40,214 nucleotides of DNA. Origin: Acidimicrobiaceae bacterium (GTDB lineage: Bacteria; Actinomycetota; Acidimicrobiia; Acidimicrobiales; RAAP-2). Both the position numbers and the translations under genes were made by a program. This document shows, piece by piece, positions 3,641 through 13,293 of the stretch. The notes under the pieces are model-generated. The model did no database searches. It worked only from the letters and a program-made list of their open reading frames with translations, and was not told the origin of the DNA. The DNA lies in NCBI GenBank assembly GCA_003164095.1, contig PLRX01000043.1:1-40214 (forward strand). The letters run 5' to 3'. The stretch's first letter is position 1; every line of letters begins with the position of its first letter.

Positions 3641-4660
3641 GTGACCGACGTTGAGGCCGGAAAATTGCAGGTCGGCGCGTCGGCCAACTCGTCCCCGGCG
3701 GTTGACGTCAAGGGTCTGACCAAGCGCTACGGCGACCTGACGGCGGTCGACGGGATCGACTTCTCCGTCGGCCAGGGCGAGGTGTTCGCCTTCCTGGGGC
3801 CGAACGGGGCGGGCAAGTCCACCACCATCAAGATGCTGTGCACACTGGCCCACCCGACCTCGGGCCGTGCCATGGTCGCCGGCTTCGACGTGGGATCGGA
3901 CGCGAAGTCGGTCCGCCGTCACATCGGACTCGTCTTCCAGGAGCAGACCCTCGACGACCAACTCACCGCCGAGGAGAACCTCCGGTTCCACGCGGTGCTC
4001 TACGGCGTGCCCCACGGGCAGGTCGAGTCGCGGATCGCGAGGGTCATGGAGTTGGTGGCGCTCTCGGACCGGCGCAAGGACTTGGTGTCGACGTACTCGG
4101 GCGGAATGGCGCGGCGCCTCGAGATCGCCCGGGGCATGCTCCACACGCCCAAGATCCTCTTCCTCGACGAGCCCACGGTCGGTCTCGACCCCCAGACCCG
4201 GGCGCTCATCTGGGAGGACATCCAGCGGCTGCGTATCGAGGAGGGGGTGACGATCTTCCTCACCACCCACTACATGGACGAAGCCGAGTACGCCGAGCGG
4301 ATCGCCATCATTGACTACGGGAGGATCATCGCCCTCGACACACCCGACGTACTCAAGGCCTCGGTGGGCACCGACACCGTGGCCATCGAGACCTCCGATG
4401 ACGAGGCCGCACTGGTCGCGCTCCAACGGGCCGGCTATACGGTCGAGCGCACCGAGGGCGGCCTCACCGCTTTCGTGGCCGACGAGGAAGCCGCTGTCGG
4501 GCCCATCGTGGCCGCCGCCGGAGTCCCGGTGCGCACGGTCCGGGCCCACCGCCCCACTCTCGACGACGTATTCCTCCACTACACGGGGCGGGAGATCCGG
4601 GAGCAGCACGGCGAGGCCATCCCGATGATGGCGCGGGCCCGCGGCGCTCGCAGGAGCTGA
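3641..4660 (+). CDS. ABC transporter ATP-binding protein (DrrA-like)
   Basis: The nucleotide-binding subunit of an ABC-2 type exporter, 339 residues, cytoplasmic, pairing with the permease encoded 9 nt downstream. All NBD motifs are present: Walker A GPNGAGKST (53-61), Q-loop Gln100, signature YSGGM (152-156), Walker B ILFLDEP (172-178) and switch His210. The C-terminal 80 residues form the extra domain of the DrrA/daunorubicin-resistance subfamily, ending in the typical PTLDDVFLHYTG segment. The start is GTG at 3641 with only a weak GA-rich site before it. It is the first gene of a four-gene operon running to 7258. The substrate cannot be read from the sequence; DrrAB relatives export hydrophobic compounds, antibiotics or lipids. 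Confidence 0.93.
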   Translation: MTDVEAGKLQVGASANSSPAVDVKGLTKRYGDLTAVDGIDFSVGQGEVFAFLGPNGAGKSTTIKMLCTLAHPTSGRAMVAGFDVGSDAKSVRRHIGLVFQEQTLDDQLTAEENLRFHAVLYGVPHGQVESRIARVMELVALSDRRKDLVSTYSGGMARRLEIARGMLHTPKILFLDEPTVGLDPQTRALIWEDIQRLRIEEGVTIFLTTHYMDEAEYAERIAIIDYGRIIALDTPDVLKASVGTDTVAIETSDDEAALVALQRAGYTVERTEGGLTAFVADEEAAVGPIVAAAGVPVRTVRAHRPTLDDVFLHYTGREIREQHGEAIPMMARARGARRS

Positions 4661-4669
4661 GGAAACACG

Positions 4670-5563
4670 ATGACCACCCTGTCCACGACCGGTTCGACCG
4701 CTCCGACCCCCGCAGGCCCCGCAGCCACCCCGGCCGTAGACCCCGGCACCGTCATCTCCGACGAGATCCGGGTCGTCGGGATGGTGTGGGAGCGGGAGCT
4801 CATCCGCTACGTCCGGACCCGGACCCGGATCGTGAGCGGGCTGATCCAACCGGTGCTCTTCCTCTTCGTCCTCGGCTACGGCATGAGCGGCCTGGTGGGC
4901 ACCACCGGGGGCTTCAACTTCCGCCAGTTCGTCTATCCCGGGGTGGTGGCCATGAGCGTGGTCATGACCGCCATGTTCTCCGCCCTGTCGATCGTCTGGG
5001 ACCGGGAGTTCGGCTTCCTCCGCGAAATGCTGGTCGCCCCGGTCAGTCGGGTCTCCCTGGTGCTCGGCAAGACGGCGGGGGGAGCGACCGTCGCCGCCGT
5101 CCAGGGGACGATCATGCTCGTGCTCGCCCCACTGGTCGGCATCCACCTCACCCCGGTACTCGTCGTGCAGATGATCTGCCTCGAACTGTTGATGGCGGTG
5201 GCCATGACCACGTTTGGCGTCTTCGTGGCCAGCCGCATCCAGAAGATGGAGTCCTTCCAAGTCGTGATGCAGATGCTGCTCATGCCCATGCTGTTCCTGT
5301 CGGGGGCGCTCTTCCCGCTCAACGGCCTGCCGGGATGGCTGACCGTGATCACCCGGCTCAACCCGCTCACCTACGCCATCGCCCCGTTCCGCCAGGTGGT
5401 CTTCGCCGCCCAGGACATGTCGCCGGCGGCCCGGGCACGTTTCCCGACCAATGTCACGCTCTTCGGGTACACGCTGCCCATCGGCATGGAGCTGGCGATC
5501 GTCGTGGTGTTCGCCCTGGTGTTCTTCGTCCTCGCCTTCCGGGGGCTGTCCAAGACCGAGTAA
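4670..5563 (+). CDS. ABC-2 type transporter permease (DrrB-like)
   Basis: The membrane subunit of the exporter, 297 residues. After a Pro/Ala/Thr-rich N-terminus of about 35 residues come six predicted helices near 56-74, 87-107, 134-158, 165-187, 199-217 and 270-291. The family hallmark FGFLREMLVAPVSR lies at about 114-127, between helices 2 and 3, and the NPLTYAIAPFRQ stretch precedes the last helix, as in DrrB proteins. The start ATG follows the ATPase stop by 9 nt, with GAGGAAA as ribosome binding site, so the two are cotranscribed and likely made in balanced amounts. The extended N-terminal linker is of no known function. Confidence 0.92.
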   Translation: MTTLSTTGSTAPTPAGPAATPAVDPGTVISDEIRVVGMVWERELIRYVRTRTRIVSGLIQPVLFLFVLGYGMSGLVGTTGGFNFRQFVYPGVVAMSVVMTAMFSALSIVWDREFGFLREMLVAPVSRVSLVLGKTAGGATVAAVQGTIMLVLAPLVGIHLTPVLVVQMICLELLMAVAMTTFGVFVASRIQKMESFQVVMQMLLMPMLFLSGALFPLNGLPGWLTVITRLNPLTYAIAPFRQVVFAAQDMSPAARARFPTNVTLFGYTLPIGMELAIVVVFALVFFVLAFRGLSKTE

Positions 5564-5576
5564 AGGGGAGTCTGCG

Positions 5577-6413
5577 ATGAAGATCGACCGGTCGGTGTGC
5601 ATCGTCACCGGGGCCTCCTCAGGCATCGGGGCGGCAACGGCGCGCCAGTTGGCCGGGCTCGGCGCACGTGTGGTCCTGGCCGCCCGTCGGACCGACCGGC
5701 TCGAGGCTCTGGCCCGGGAACTACCGGGTGCGGTGGCCGTCACCACCGATGTCACCGTCGACGGCGAGTTCGAGCACTTGGTGGCGGAGACGGTCGACCG
5801 GTTCGGCGGTGTGGACGTCCTGGTGAACAACGCCGGACAGGGCCTCCACGTACCGCTCGAGCAGTTGGACCCGGTCGACCTGCGGGCTGTGTTCGAGCTC
5901 AACGTCGTCGCACCCCTGCGGGGTATGCAGGCGGTGCTTCCATCCATGCGGAGCACTGGCGGCGGGGCCGTCGTGAACGTGAGTTCGGCCACGTCGCTGC
6001 GGGTGTTTCCGGGGCTGGGCGGCTACTCCGCCACCAAAGCCGCCCTCAACATGCTCTCCCAGGTCGCCAGGATCGAGCTGGCCGATGCCGGGGTCACGGT
6101 CTCGGTCGTCTATCCGTCGGTGACCGCTACCGAGTTCCACCAGCACCTGCGGGCCGGGCGCATCCTGGCCGGAGCCCGGACGATCCCCCTGGACCCGCCG
6201 GAGCTCGTCGGTCAGGCGATCATGCTGGCCATCCGGACGGGCGAGGCTCACGTCCTAGTCTCCGACCCGCCCCGGCCCATCGTCCCCGGGGACGCCGAAG
6301 GTTGGGGTGCACTGCTCGCCCGTCAGTCCAGTGAGGCGGGTCGGTCGCCTGGGGACACGCCCAGCGGCGAGCGGACCGCGGCCACCAGGCTGACCGAGGA
6401 ACCCCGGGGATGA
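5577..6413 (+). CDS. SDR family NAD(P)-dependent oxidoreductase
   Basis: A classical short-chain dehydrogenase of 278 residues. It has cofactor motif TGASSGIG (11-18), NNAG (84-87) and the catalytic set Ser137, Tyr150 and Lys154 (YSATK). ATG 5577 is chosen because AGGGGAG ends 6 nt upstream; an open frame extends further 5' inside the permease gene but is its shadow. The C-terminal 30 residues are charged and beyond the usual SDR core. It is the third gene of the exporter operon and its stop overlaps the next start (ATGA). The substrate is unknown; cotranscription with an exporter suggests modification of, or resistance to, the exported compound, which is inference. Confidence 0.92.
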   Translation: MKIDRSVCIVTGASSGIGAATARQLAGLGARVVLAARRTDRLEALARELPGAVAVTTDVTVDGEFEHLVAETVDRFGGVDVLVNNAGQGLHVPLEQLDPVDLRAVFELNVVAPLRGMQAVLPSMRSTGGGAVVNVSSATSLRVFPGLGGYSATKAALNMLSQVARIELADAGVTVSVVYPSVTATEFHQHLRAGRILAGARTIPLDPPELVGQAIMLAIRTGEAHVLVSDPPRPIVPGDAEGWGALLARQSSEAGRSPGDTPSGERTAATRLTEEPRG

Positions 6414-9512: not shown

Positions 9513-9629
9513 ATGCAGGAGCGCTCCGGACCACGCAGGTTGAGCGGCGGGACACCGGGGAGCGACGCGGCCCCGGGAGTTGCCGGTCGACGGTTGCCCC
9601 GGGCGCAGATCGGAAGGGGAGCGCCATGA
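9513..9629 (+). CDS. Possible 38-aa upstream ORF coupled to the aminotransferase
   Basis: A short frame starting MQERSGPRR and rich in Gly, Arg and Pro ends at TGA 9627-9629. The stop overlaps the aminotransferase start codon in an ATGA arrangement. A TAGTGT hexamer sits just before its ATG, so the transcript would be nearly leaderless and ribosomes finishing this ORF could reinitiate on the main gene. The peptide matches nothing I know, and it may simply be open by chance in GC-rich DNA. Confidence 0.3.
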   Translation: MQERSGPRRLSGGTPGSDAAPGVAGRRLPRAQIGRGAP

Positions 9630-10966
9630 CCGACGGTGTGCGCAAGCAGGCGGTGCTGGAGCAGTTCGCCACGTTCCTGAACCCCCAGAAGGTCCGGGTC
9701 ATGCGGGCGGCCGGTCTCGACATCATCGAGGGCGAACGCTCCGGGCCGTGGGTGTGGGACATCGACGGCACCCGCTACCTCGACTGCTTCACCTCTGCCG
9801 GTTCCTTCAACGTGGGCCGGCGCCATCCCCGGGTCGTGGCTGCCGCGCACGCCGCGGTCGACCACCTCGACAACGGCAACTTCCTGCTGTGCTCGGAGCA
9901 GAAGGCGATGCTCGCCGCCAAGCTGGCCGAGGTCACCCCGGGCGACCTGTCGTGCACGATGTTCGGGTCAGGAGGTGGTGAGGCCATCGACTTCGCCGTC
10001 AAGCTGGCCCGTGGGTCCACGGGCCGACCGACCGTCGTATCGACCGTAAACGGCTACCACGGCCACACCGGGTTCGCACTGTCGGCGGCCGGCCGGGCGT
10101 CGTTCCGGCAGCCGTTCGAGCCGCTGATGCCCGACTTCGTCCAGGTCCCCTTCGGCGACCTCGACGCCCTGGTCGCCGTGCTCGACGAGCGCACGGCCGC
10201 CGTTCTCCTCGAGCCGATCCAGGGCGAGGGGGGCATCGTGGTGCCGCCCGACGGATACCTGGCCGGCGTGCGTGCCGCCTGCGACCGCGTCGGTGCCCTG
10301 CTGATCCTGGACGAGATCCAGACCGGGTTGGGCCGGACCGGTCGCTGGTGGGCCTGCGAGCACGATGCCGTGGTCCCCGACATCATGACGACGGCGAAAT
10401 CGCTCGGTGGCTCGCTGGTGCCCATTTCCGCGACGGTGTTCACGGAGGAGCTGCGGGAGTTCCTGATCCCAAATCCCTTCATCCACCTCTCCACCTTCGG
10501 AGGCTCGGACCTCGCCTGCGCGGTCGCCCTCGAGGTACTGGCCGTGATCCAGGAGACCGGCCTGGTCGAGCACGCCGCGGCGATGGGCGAGCGGCTGTTC
10601 GCGGGTCTGCGAGCCATTGCCGCCGCTCACCCCGAGGTCATCACCGAGGTCCGTGGTCGAGGGCTCATGGCCGGCATCCAGTACGTCGAGGACTCACTCG
10701 GGCCCCGGATGTCGTACCACCTGGCGCAGCACGGGGTCCTGGCCATCTACAGCGGCAACCAGCCGGCGGTCATGCGCCTGATGCCGACGCTGGTCATCGA
10801 GGAGGACGAGGTGGCCCTGCTCCTGTCCGCGCTCGACGCGGCGATCGACGACCTGCTGGCCGGCGCCGGGCCGGAGGAGGCGGCACCGTCACGTCCGAAG
10901 CGCCGACCGGTGCGGTCCACCGGGTCCGGTGCGGGGGCGACGATGCCCGCCGGTTCACCGAGCTGA
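9626..10966 (+). CDS. Class III PLP-dependent aminotransferase
   Basis: A 446-residue cytoplasmic aminotransferase of the acetylornithine/GABA/ornithine superfamily, transferring an amino group from an omega-amine or amino acid to a keto acid. GSGGGEA (114-120) is the phosphate-binding loop. LILDEIQTGLGRTG (226-239) carries Asp229 and Gln232, which contact the PLP ring, and Lys258 in TTAKSLGG is the Schiff-base lysine. ATG 9626 is preceded by AAGGGGAG. After the fold ends at about residue 415, a Pro/Arg/Ser-rich tail follows with SRPKRRPVR at 422-430; nearly the same motif ends the permease two genes on. The next gene starts 10 nt downstream, so these form an operon. The exact substrate is not readable. 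Confidence 0.93.
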   Translation: MTDGVRKQAVLEQFATFLNPQKVRVMRAAGLDIIEGERSGPWVWDIDGTRYLDCFTSAGSFNVGRRHPRVVAAAHAAVDHLDNGNFLLCSEQKAMLAAKLAEVTPGDLSCTMFGSGGGEAIDFAVKLARGSTGRPTVVSTVNGYHGHTGFALSAAGRASFRQPFEPLMPDFVQVPFGDLDALVAVLDERTAAVLLEPIQGEGGIVVPPDGYLAGVRAACDRVGALLILDEIQTGLGRTGRWWACEHDAVVPDIMTTAKSLGGSLVPISATVFTEELREFLIPNPFIHLSTFGGSDLACAVALEVLAVIQETGLVEHAAAMGERLFAGLRAIAAAHPEVITEVRGRGLMAGIQYVEDSLGPRMSYHLAQHGVLAIYSGNQPAVMRLMPTLVIEEDEVALLLSALDAAIDDLLAGAGPEEAAPSRPKRRPVRSTGSGAGATMPAGSPS

Positions 10967-10976
10967 GGAGGGGACG

Positions 10977-11336
10977 ATGGCCGACTGGGACGAGCTCGCC
11001 GAGGCGCTGGCCGACTACACGGTCAGCTGCAACGAGAACGAGCGGCTCCGCAAGATGCAGCGGGACTGGACGCGCGTGCTGCACTTCGAGTGCTCCGACA
11101 GCGGTGTCCGCTTCACCATGGACGTCGAACGGGGTGAGATCCTGGCGACACCCGTTGGGCACGTCGGGACCCCCGACATCGTGGTGACGACCCATTCGGA
11201 AACGTTCTGCGACATGTTCTGGGGCGACCTGAACCCGGTACAGAAGTACCTGCGGGGGGAGATCACGGTGCAGGGGTCGCAGGAGGACGTGATGCGCCTC
11301 GACGCCATCAGCGCCGTCATCTGGCCCGACGCCTGA
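10977..11336 (+). CDS. SCP2-like sterol-binding domain protein
   Basis: A 119-residue single-domain protein. The pattern VLHFECSDSGVRFTMDVERGEI, then a strand GTPDIVVTTHSETFCDMFWGDLNPVQKYLRGEITVQGS, fits the SCP2/sterol-carrier fold, whose central signature combines a D-(I/V) strand, an x-F-x-x-(M/L)-x-x-G-x-L/DP helix and a (K/R)-G-x-(I/V)-x-V-x-G strand. It binds hydrophobic ligands in other proteins; here the ligand is unknown. The start ATG 10977 has GAGGAGGGG upstream, and the gene lies 10 nt after the aminotransferase and 13 nt before the permease, so it is part of the same operon. An isolated SCP2 domain between an aminotransferase and an amino acid permease is unusual. Confidence 0.82.
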   Translation: MADWDELAEALADYTVSCNENERLRKMQRDWTRVLHFECSDSGVRFTMDVERGEILATPVGHVGTPDIVVTTHSETFCDMFWGDLNPVQKYLRGEITVQGSQEDVMRLDAISAVIWPDA

Positions 11337-11349
11337 GGGTGGGCGGTTG

Positions 11350-12840
11350 ATGGCAAACGGTGGAGGAGCTCCTGCGCCGACGGCGTCGACCTTGCGTCGC
11401 TCGGTCACGACCGCCACCGCCACCGCGACGTCGGCCGGGCTGGCGTTCGCAGCGATCGACTACCTCGGTGTGGTCTCGGTCCTGGCCTATGCCCCCGGGG
11501 CCACCGCCGCCCTGGCGATCCTGATCGGCGGACTGATGGTCGTGCTGGTGGCGGGCATCTTCGCCGAGCTGAACGGGCTCTACCCGACGGCAGCCGGCAT
11601 CCGGCTCTACCTGGGCAGGGCCGTCGGCAACCGGACCGCGATGTCCGTCACGTTCACGTACATGGCGACGGTGGTGCTGGTCATCGCCGCCGACGCCTTC
11701 CTGATCGGCGCGGCCATCCGCCACGTGCTCCATGAGCCGGCCGTCCTGGCCTACCTCTGGATCGCCGTGCTGCTCGGCATCGCCCTGGCGGCCAACCTGC
11801 GGGGGATCCGGATGGCGGGCTGGGTCCAGACCTTCGTCACCTACACCGTGCTGACGGGTACGGCGGTCCTGTCCGTCGTGGCGATCTTCCACCACGGACG
11901 TGCGTTCCACCAGCCGTTCGACATCTTCGGCAAGGGGGCGTTCTCCGGGATCCAGGCGATCGCCTTCGCACTCTTCCTCTACGCCGCGTTCGAGTGGGTG
12001 ACCACCACAGCCGAGGAGGCCCGTACGCCACGGGTGATCACCCGGGCCCTGTTCATCGCCCCGTTCCTGATCTGGCTGGTCTCGACCCTCTTCGCGCTCG
12101 CTCTGGCCCATCTGGTCCCGTTCCCGGTCCTCCACCACAGTGCCTACCCCCAGCTGCTCATGGGCAAGGCTGCCCTCGGCACAATCGGCGAGCTGTGGAT
12201 GCTGGCGCTCACCGTCCTGACCGCACTGAACACGTTCAACGGCGGGTTCCTGGTGGCATCGAGGTTCATCTACGCCGCCGCACGTGAGAACACGCTGCCG
12301 CGCCAGTTCGCCAAGCTCAATCTCAACGCGGTGCCCTGGCTGGCAGTCTGCGTGCTGGCCGGCGTGTCGGCCGTCGTAGCCGCGCTGGTCTTCGCCACCG
12401 GACAGTGGTTGCTGCTGGTGGCGGTCGGAGCGGCCATCGAGTCCGCGATCTATGCCATCGGGTCAGTCTGCCTACTGGTGCTCCGTCGGCGCGACACACG
12501 GGAGCGGCCGTTCCGGCTCATCGCGGCGCGGCCGCTGGCGACATTCGGCGCGGTGCTCTTCACGATCATGTTCCTCGCCACCGGGCTGTCCGATCCGAAG
12601 AACCCGAGCCACCTCTCGGTGGTGCCCCTGGGTGTCATCGTCGTGCTGGGTGCCGTGTCGATCGGTTACGTGCTGCTGTGCGTACCGAGGCTGCAGGCTG
12701 CGGCGGCCGCCCGGGCGGCGACCAGCCGGCCCAAGCGGCGTCCGCAGCGGACGGCGGAGTCGGGTGGAGGGGGGCCGACGTCGACAGGACCCGTGCGGAC
12801 GCCGCCCTCACCCCCGTCCGGGCCCATGGCGGGTACCTGA
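11350..12840 (+). CDS. APC-superfamily amino acid permease
   Basis: A 496-residue integral membrane transporter with about twelve predicted helices between residues 30 and 445. Helix 1 begins AAIDYLGVVSVLAYAPGATAAL, helix 2-3 contains AGIFAELNGLYPTAAGIRLYLGRAVG (the APC E-L-x-x-x-x-P-x-(A/S)-G-G-like signature), and a mid-protein FEWVTTTAEEARTPR resembles the E..NP-type substrate region of amino acid/polyamine transporters. ATG 11350 is used; a TTG directly before it is possible. The last 45 residues are cytoplasmic, Pro/Arg/Gly-rich and contain SRPKRRPQR (459-467), echoing the aminotransferase tail. It likely imports the amine or amino acid that the aminotransferase uses; this is inferred from the operon. 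Confidence 0.9.
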   Translation: MANGGGAPAPTASTLRRSVTTATATATSAGLAFAAIDYLGVVSVLAYAPGATAALAILIGGLMVVLVAGIFAELNGLYPTAAGIRLYLGRAVGNRTAMSVTFTYMATVVLVIAADAFLIGAAIRHVLHEPAVLAYLWIAVLLGIALAANLRGIRMAGWVQTFVTYTVLTGTAVLSVVAIFHHGRAFHQPFDIFGKGAFSGIQAIAFALFLYAAFEWVTTTAEEARTPRVITRALFIAPFLIWLVSTLFALALAHLVPFPVLHHSAYPQLLMGKAALGTIGELWMLALTVLTALNTFNGGFLVASRFIYAAARENTLPRQFAKLNLNAVPWLAVCVLAGVSAVVAALVFATGQWLLLVAVGAAIESAIYAIGSVCLLVLRRRDTRERPFRLIAARPLATFGAVLFTIMFLATGLSDPKNPSHLSVVPLGVIVVLGAVSIGYVLLCVPRLQAAAAARAATSRPKRRPQRTAESGGGGPTSTGPVRTPPSPPSGPMAGT

Positions 12841-12900: not shown

Positions 12901-13293
12901 ATGGACGGCGATCCGTCGGGCGTGAAGGTTCCCGGGCTCGAGCCGGTGTTCCGCCACCTGGACGACCCGGACGTGCCCTGGCAGCAGGTGCGGTCCGTCC
13001 GTCGTGCGGACGGGTCGGTGGCGTCGGTGTGGGAGAAGTGGCTCGCATTCTCGGCCGATCCCCTCTACCTCTCGCTGTACGCCAAATGGGATCCGGGCGT
13101 GATCCAACGCCGGCACGGTCACCTCAGCCCGCACGTGCTCATGGTCCTCGAGGGCGAGATCCTCTGCGGCGACCGCCTGTGTGGTGCGGGTACCCACATC
13201 GAGCTCCCGTTCGGCGCGGCGTTCGGCCCGTTCGTCGCCGGAGGCGACGGTGCGGTCCTCTTCGAGGTGATGATGGGTGACCCGAGGGGCTAG
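12901..13293 (+). CDS. Cupin-domain protein, truncated by an in-frame amber codon
   Basis: A 130-residue single-domain cupin. RRHGHLSPHVLMVLEGE (about 70-86) is cupin motif 1 with metal-ligand candidates His72, His74 and His78; GTHIELPFGAAFGPF follows as motif 2 but lacks the usual terminal His. The start ATG 12901 has no Shine-Dalgarno and is preceded by TAGCCT at leaderless spacing. The frame stops at TAG 13291-13293 after GDPRG, yet the same frame stays open and protein-like for 40 more codons to TGA 13416. A TGG-to-TAG change of a Trp codon would explain this. The cupin core itself is complete, so the short product may still fold. It probably has its own promoter although it follows the permease by 60 nt. 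Confidence 0.75.
   Translation: MDGDPSGVKVPGLEPVFRHLDDPDVPWQQVRSVRRADGSVASVWEKWLAFSADPLYLSLYAKWDPGVIQRRHGHLSPHVLMVLEGEILCGDRLCGAGTHIELPFGAAFGPFVAGGDGAVLFEVMMGDPRG

Follow-up and report, generated by a model that had tools for sequence, protein, structure and literature searches.

The allantoinase AllB binds the allantoin transporter AllW in Escherichia coli, as stated in the abstract of that study (PMC10163214). In a second system, the small SCP2-domain protein UbiJ acts together with UbiK as a membrane-side accessory of the multi-enzyme Ubi metabolon, according to the abstract of the article (PMC9499169). Here we describe a locus in which elements of both may be combined. In a stretch of 40,214 nucleotides from an Acidimicrobiaceae bacterium (GCA_003164095.1, contig PLRX01000043.1; the whole stretch is called the window below), three consecutive genes on the plus strand encode a class-III aminotransferase, an SCP2-like protein and a permease of the APC family, and the aminotransferase and the permease carry a very similar basic motif in their C-terminal tails.

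The assembly that we propose for this locus would resemble AllB-AllW in that a catabolic enzyme is bound to the transporter of its own pathway, but other enzyme and transporter families are involved, and the abstract mentions no tail motif common to the two partners (PMC10163214). The fold search with the SCP2-like protein also matched UbiJ structures. The Ubi metabolon, however, serves ubiquinone synthesis, a role in binding the lipid tail of the intermediates is proposed for the SCP2 domain of UbiJ, and no arginine-proline client motif is mentioned in the abstract (PMC9499169). As far as these sources go, UbiJ may be taken by analogy as a precedent for an SCP2-domain protein in a membrane-side enzyme complex, and AllB-AllW as one for enzyme-transporter binding. 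Short terminal tags that bring several enzymes to a common partner are represented by the encapsulation peptides of bacterial microcompartments and by the cargo tags of encapsulins. These tags are hydrophobic or helical and are made for shells, whereas the tails in the window are rich in arginine and proline and are also found on a membrane permease. To our knowledge, enzyme-transporter coupling has often been proposed for bacteria, and a visible sequence signature of it is rare. Open-access literature searches gave no paper describing the operon or the motif among the matches listed. With an eight-residue motif that one operon places both on its transporter and on a soluble enzyme, and with a similar basic transporter tail that is kept in two phyla, a possible physical linkage of uptake to the first catabolic step becomes open to experiment, and the tail may be used as an annotation marker for amine-uptake operons in uncultured Acidimicrobiia.

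The motif in the window and in related operons

The three genes are separated by gaps of 10 and 13 bases and probably form an operon, judging from this tight spacing and from the conserved gene order. A preliminary description of the window had reported the motifs SRPKRRPVR in the aminotransferase and SRPKRRPQR in the permease, with the SCP2-like gene between the two tail bearers, and the sequence confirmed all three (Table 1). The motifs lie 16 and 29 residues from the respective C-terminus and are spelt TCA CGT CCG AAG CGC CGA CCG GTG CGG and AGC CGG CCC AAG CGG CGT CCG CAG CGG. At the eight residues that are identical between the two tails, five codons are different and three are the same, so that most synonymous positions differ, as had been stated. 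A recent DNA copy, which the earlier view had also dismissed, and a gene conversion between the tails were therefore rejected; codons also differ across loci. A twin-arginine (Tat) signal was rejected as well, because such a signal is N-terminal and precedes a hydrophobic stretch, whereas the motif is C-terminal in both proteins.

Both tails had been placed outside the folded domains. For the aminotransferase this is borne out by an AlphaFold2 model, in which no helix extends beyond residue 411 and the pLDDT (predicted local distance difference test) is below 50 for residues 419-446; the permease motif lies past the residues matched by Pfam. The motif thus has the properties of a short linear motif, namely an invariant RRP with variable flanks and a variable linker in both proteins and a low-pLDDT stretch in the aminotransferase model. 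The Ser/Gly/Thr-rich ends noted earlier do follow the motifs in the window but are not conserved, and in several aminotransferases the final Arg of the motif is also the C-terminal residue.

A search with an alignment of the SCP2-like protein led to 24 named contigs, 22 of them with actinobacterial names (Acidimicrobiaceae, Acidimicrobiales, 'Actinomycetes' and similar), one from an 'uncultured bacterium' (L055) and one from a Desulfarculaceae metagenome-assembled genome; L, G and C numbers are our handles for loci, genomes and contigs. Matches were present in 20 of 397 genomes of the window's order. Searches with the aminotransferase and the permease covered near relatives, samples of the class and the phylum and, in addition, samples of the phylum of the Desulfarculaceae genome G903, which is Thermodesulfobacteriota at NCBI and is called Desulfobacterota here. 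The window's operon type was found at 31 actinobacterial loci (the window and 30 others, L055 included). Tails were counted only in frames that are complete at the 3' end, as three actinobacterial permeases and two Desulfobacterota pieces are cut by contig ends. The RRP core is present within the last 45 residues of all aminotransferases (30/30) and all complete permeases (28/28) of these 31 loci, with R-x-[RK]-R-R-P-x-R as the consensus in both proteins. Within Actinomycetota, both proteins hence conserve the tail in orthologous operons of divergent genomes, a pattern that had been named beforehand as support for a function; one of these genomes is G819 from another class of the phylum, whose full operon has the tail on both proteins.

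Some copies depart from the consensus: the final Arg is missing from the L058 aminotransferase and is replaced by Lys in L053, and the first Arg is absent from a few copies. A stricter spelling pattern was failed by five rows, namely the permeases of L042 and L051 and the aminotransferase of L046, all with RRP, and the two proteins of L060, a tail-less aminotransferase and a permease with RRRR. The 12 bases for [RK]RRP occur in 28 distinct spellings in 29 aminotransferase rows and in 24 spellings in 26 permease rows. The linkers and tail ends vary in length and content, and the flanking residues vary as well. This combination of a constant core with varied synonymous spelling and variable surroundings provides good support for purifying selection acting on the short peptide and not on the DNA. 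At the variable positions, the two tails of one genome match more often than shuffled pairs (41 vs 31.8 expected, reached in 0.2% of the shuffles, with shared ancestry uncorrected). This comparison included the 27 genomes, and thus 27 pairs, in which both tails are readable, and the tails of L042, L046 and L057 were corrected by hand, the L057 aminotransferase having been placed in a shifted register. In the lineage of L050, L054 and L055 the two tails are closely alike, with RVRRRPQR on both proteins of L054 and L055 and different codons.

To assess how common the motif is in the genome of the window, 311 genes were called by codon usage in the window and 20 further stretches (372,621 bases, about one tenth of the genome). 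The pattern [RK]RRP.R was confined to two of them, the aminotransferase and the permease, and R..RRP.R occurred in 55 of 400,000 random 45-mers with the C-terminal composition of the genome. A pattern for RPKRRP with CGN arginines had two forward matches in the genome, both of them the window tails; the pattern read backward also had two, on the reverse strand. When a 14-position tail profile was run against all six frames of the genome, 10 matches were obtained at E ≤10, and the window tails ranked first and second (E 0.002 and 0.004). Five of the other eight matches are in frames without coding character, one of which (L103) is followed by 18 more residues of its 395-residue frame, itself antisense to two well-scored frames, and three are in unscored frames of 17, 49 and 141 residues. 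No persuasive C-terminus is among these eight, and the concern that the motif might be common in unrelated C-termini of this genome was not substantiated. A third tail-bearing protein was sought with the same profile in this and 16 related genomes, and beyond the operon tails only short or unconvincing frames were found; the profile is weak, recovering at E 0.05 the operon tail in only 8 of the 16 related genomes and none in G903 despite two tailed proteins, so that a third bearer may exist.

Homologues outside the operon served as controls. The tail was absent from a 38%-identical aminotransferase of the same genome (G000:C2:42775-44043), which lies inside the stretches searched, and from all 27 aminotransferases of the phylum (40-50% identical) with neither an SCP2-like nor a permease match nearer than about 1.5 kb. 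These 27 were taken from 37 such matches; altogether, 30 of 40 matches were examined (the genome's own, G144, G819 and the 27 outside the operon). A further 16 homologues outside the operon, from the phylum of G903, lacked the tail as well (total 0/43), as did all 11 distant APC permeases. An aminotransferase with 60% identity (G934), for which the 11 kb examined contain neither an SCP2-like nor a permease match, has no tail either. These controls show the tail, at the level of sequence comparison, to be specific to these operons.

A possible docking function and its candidate partner

The reading that we tentatively favour is that the tails are one docking motif, which would place an amine permease and an amine-converting enzyme on a common partner, most likely the SCP2-like protein. 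The motif R-x-[RK]-R-R-P-x-R would be borne as a docking tag on flexible C-terminal extensions, and the end of the permease and, in Actinomycetota, that of the aminotransferase would bind the same site on the partner. The C-terminus of APC permeases is cytosolic. Class-III aminotransferases form dimers or larger oligomers, so that each assembled enzyme would present more than one tail. An imported amine could then be handed to the deaminating enzyme at the membrane, with the small, acidic SCP2-like protein and its lipid-carrier fold serving as a membrane adaptor. Binding of a protein by the tail, the SCP2-like protein as the partner and the bringing together of enzyme and permease are each suggested by sequence conservation and gene order.

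The SCP2-like protein is the putative receptor of the tails that we consider most likely, since apart from the tail bearers no member of the operon is as constant; such a role would be one possible function of these proteins. It belongs to PF02036 (36.7 bits, gathering cut-off 21.3, E 5.6e-9), and its AlphaFold2 model has a pLDDT of 91.3. A Foldseek search with this model returned 44 matches at E ≤0.001, which comprise SCP2 proteins, UbiJ and the SCP2-like domains found in hydrolases of the alkylsulfatase type. The protein contains 22 Asp/Glu and 10 Lys/Arg, and the short form is acidic in all 43 copies, with net charges of -7 to -15. Among permeases that were found without using SCP2, an SCP2-like gene is adjacent in all nine distinct Actinomycetota members of the clade and is part of the same cluster for 12 of 13 testable Desulfobacterota permeases, the fourteenth lying at a contig end; loci found through SCP2 alone are omitted from these counts. 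In 4 of those 12 clusters it is a longer SCP2-like protein, whose match is below the Pfam cut-off in both examples tested. The SCP2-like protein is also more conserved than its two operon neighbours, and its acidity, its presence in the operon and its conservation are consistent with a role as the partner.

The substrate would be a primary amine or a diamine such as putrescine, as the kinship of the enzyme suggests. The aminotransferase matches PF00202 over nearly its full length (323 bits, residues 37-407 of 446), and its best match among solved structures is YgjG/PatA (4uox; 390 bits), which stops at profile position 412, ahead of the tail. Putrescine aminotransferase models are among its best NCBIfam matches, though the scores are below the equivalog cut-offs (366 bits vs 612 and 328 vs 659 for NF008570 and TIGR03372). 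A second operon type, found in five genomes of the order, has the gene order flavin amine oxidase, SCP2-like protein, permease, with the oxidase in the place of the aminotransferase. The oxidase of L090 has a bacterial monoamine oxidase as its nearest solved structure, followed by MAO-B and putrescine oxidase, and the other four oxidases are 54-66% identical to it. That a transaminase of the putrescine-aminotransferase kind and a flavin amine oxidase can take each other's place next to the same kind of permease and SCP2-like protein suggests that a primary amine is imported and then loses its amino group.

Several findings weigh against a docking function of this kind. None of the five flavin amine oxidases has a tail, whereas their permeases, 46-49% identical to that of the window, are tailed in all five operons. 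Two gene orders occur in Desulfobacterota, one with aminotransferase, SCP2 and permease and one with SCP2 between aminotransferases 1 and 2 and the permease last, while G903 has two divergent pairs; 13 of the 14 operon aminotransferases there are tail-less (one being a 108-residue remnant). These operons can evidently do without a tail on the enzyme. The permease tail in the four-gene Desulfobacterota operons is often a plain PRRRR and is closer to a generic polybasic stretch. A tailed permease with RKKRRPGR (L248, G1134:C26, 7665-9117) has no aminotransferase or SCP2-like match in the 16 kb around it, and the SCP2-like operon of this genome is on another contig. Next to the second Desulfobacterota permease, the longer SCP2-like protein is basic instead of acidic (net charge +11 and +12 in the two examples calculated), which weakens the case for an acidic SCP2 receptor and for a simple pairing of charges. 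Finally, the adjacency of SCP2 is confounded with descent, as the tailed permeases form one clade.

The permeases of Desulfobacterota are tailed throughout, with RRP or RRRR in 9/9 first and 5/5 second permeases (14/14; the L211 permease is interrupted by an in-frame stop, and its N-terminal piece was not counted). In the three-gene type the tail is motif-like, such as the RVKRRPGR of a permease with about 30% identity to that of the window. L051 (1-1372) has the SCP2-like gene and a tailed permease and shows no aminotransferase match in the 1.3 kb upstream. The tail is thus not symmetric between enzyme and permease, and in this respect the preliminary description, with its tag common to both, was not borne out in the form given. 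Since the permease tail is kept without an enzyme tail in the amine-oxidase and Desulfobacterota operons, the comparison of loci shows it to be first of all a trait of the permease, with a wider distribution there than on the enzyme. Absence of the tail in orthologues of either gene had been named as a refutation of the proposal; none lacks it in the Actinomycetota operons of the window's type counted above, but outside this phylum the aminotransferase half of the proposal fails on this ground.

The history of the enzyme tail was examined on a tree of 50 aminotransferase rows, built from the first 400 residues with the tails excluded. The presence of the tail requires three changes, two of which are forced by well-supported branches; aminotransferase 2 of G903, with the tail RRRPRRRPRRRS, groups only with four tail-less copies (support 100/100). 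Most simply, the aminotransferases would have gained the tail two or three times, and in the simplest reading enzymes of the same cluster would have separately acquired the transporter's kind of tag. The same three changes may also represent one gain and two losses, and the branches of G903 and G819 are long; separate gains are not forced by the tree, which limits its weight for the docking reading. A more specific scheme, possible but rather less likely than not, is a membrane assembly for uptake and deamination in which the acidic SCP2-like adaptor binds an Arg-Pro tag on both permease and aminotransferase; the lipid-carrier fold would then act as a receptor of a client motif, and enzymes would join by evolving a copy of the tag.

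Alternative readings of the tail

The main rival to docking is direct binding of anionic lipids, which we regard as unlikely. Here, the polybasic tail of the permease would hug the inner leaflet and fix the topology, and the aminotransferase would be recruited to the anionic membrane near the permease without any protein receptor. A net charge of +4 to +5 over eight residues in most copies, the position of the permease tail behind the transporter domain on the side that is presumably cytosolic, as in the APC family, and the plain PRRRR tails of some Desulfobacterota permeases would all suit such an anchor. Charge alone, however, would require neither the proline nor the spacing R-x-x-R-R-P-x-R, which are nearly invariant across very different spellings, and the distant APC permeases lack the tail.

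The tail could also be a docking motif for another receptor, which we think rather improbable: the acidic body of the aminotransferase (net charge -19 for residues 1-415), the acidic end that a transketolase-like protein has in clusters of Desulfobacterota, or the product of some gene outside the operon. The two transketolase C parts read next to the second permease of Desulfobacterota terminate in EFEEDEDW[QE]DE[FI] and would be a natural match for an arginine tail. Against this reading stand the tailed permeases of operons without an aminotransferase (the amine-oxidase type and L051), and no general neighbour apart from the three genes was found in 24 loci, several of which are shortened by contig ends.

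Still less probable are two separate functions, with the permease tail as a signal of this clade for topology, stability or assembly and the aminotransferase tail of its own origin, so that the likeness would be convergence and no partner would be shared. The many operons with a permease tail and no enzyme tail fit this view, as does the frequency of arginine and proline in genomes rich in GC. Both in the called genes and in composition-matched random tails, however, the eight-residue pattern is rare, and every tailed aminotransferase seen belongs to an operon or cluster that includes this permease, with none among the 43 homologues outside. Functionless, neutral C-terminal extensions, although low-complexity C-termini are common in GC-rich genomes such as this one, are hardly credible and already contradicted by a core that is kept in every counted copy over varied synonymous sites with freely varying flanks, and that also has a counterpart on Desulfobacterota permeases about 30% identical to that of the window.

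Features of the window and further observations

The coordinates of the features are collected in Table 1. The permease reaches 97.2 bits with PF13520 (cut-off 27); none of the nine NCBIfam models listed for it, which are amino acid permease families, reaches its own cut-off. Its open frame has an alternative start at TTG 11347.

Table 1. Features of the operon in the window and loci of the amine-oxidase type
Feature	Position or locus	Strand	Basis or remark
Class-III aminotransferase	9626..10966	+	PF00202, E 3e-96; closest solved relative putrescine aminotransferase YgjG (4uox)
Aminotransferase tail motif SRPKRRPVR	10889..10915	+	core R-x-[RK]-R-R-P-x-R, predicted disordered stretch
SCP2-like acidic protein, candidate receptor of the tails	10977..11336	+	119 aa, net charge -12, pI 4.4
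APC-family amino acid/amine permease	11350..12840	+	PF13520, E 1.3e-27; start taken as ATG 11350
Permease tail motif SRPKRRPQR	12724..12750	+	beyond the Pfam permease domain match (residues 28-425 of 497)
Amine-oxidase operons	L090-L094 (G297, G316, G238, G381, G011)		L090: Pfam Amino_oxidase, E 1e-73

Directly downstream of the permease, at 12901-13293, the window contains a small cupin-like gene (weak Cupin_7 match, below cut-off), which is not among the conserved neighbours of the operon in 24 loci. When a larger conserved cluster was sought in the 24 actinobacterial loci, of which several are shortened by contig ends, only the three operon genes were general. A dipeptidase-like gene, which we take to encode a C69-type dipeptidase or an acyltransferase, is near the operon in five of them (L044, L049, L052, L053 and L056). 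The amine-oxidase operons of L090 and L093 are flanked by genes that are presumably lepA and hrcA/dnaJ. A mixed arrangement was found at L095 (G100), where a tailed aminotransferase and the SCP2-like protein are encoded on one strand and a tailed permease, with 47% identity like those of the amine-oxidase type, on the opposite strand.

In the Desulfobacterota loci L212 and L213 (G990, G954), the cluster goes on with a transketolase split into an N and a C part, the longer SCP2-like protein and a second permease with a PRRRRP tail; the very acidic transketolase ends quoted above are those of these two loci. The start of the same transketolase-type extension is present at L211 (G916), where an in-frame TAG divides the permease (4236-5697) into 272 and 214 residues; a sequence error, a pseudogene or readthrough are possible. 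The longer, basic SCP2-like protein of L212 and L213 contains an internal YTRRRPFIDM or YTRKKPFIDM, which resembles the core of the tail.

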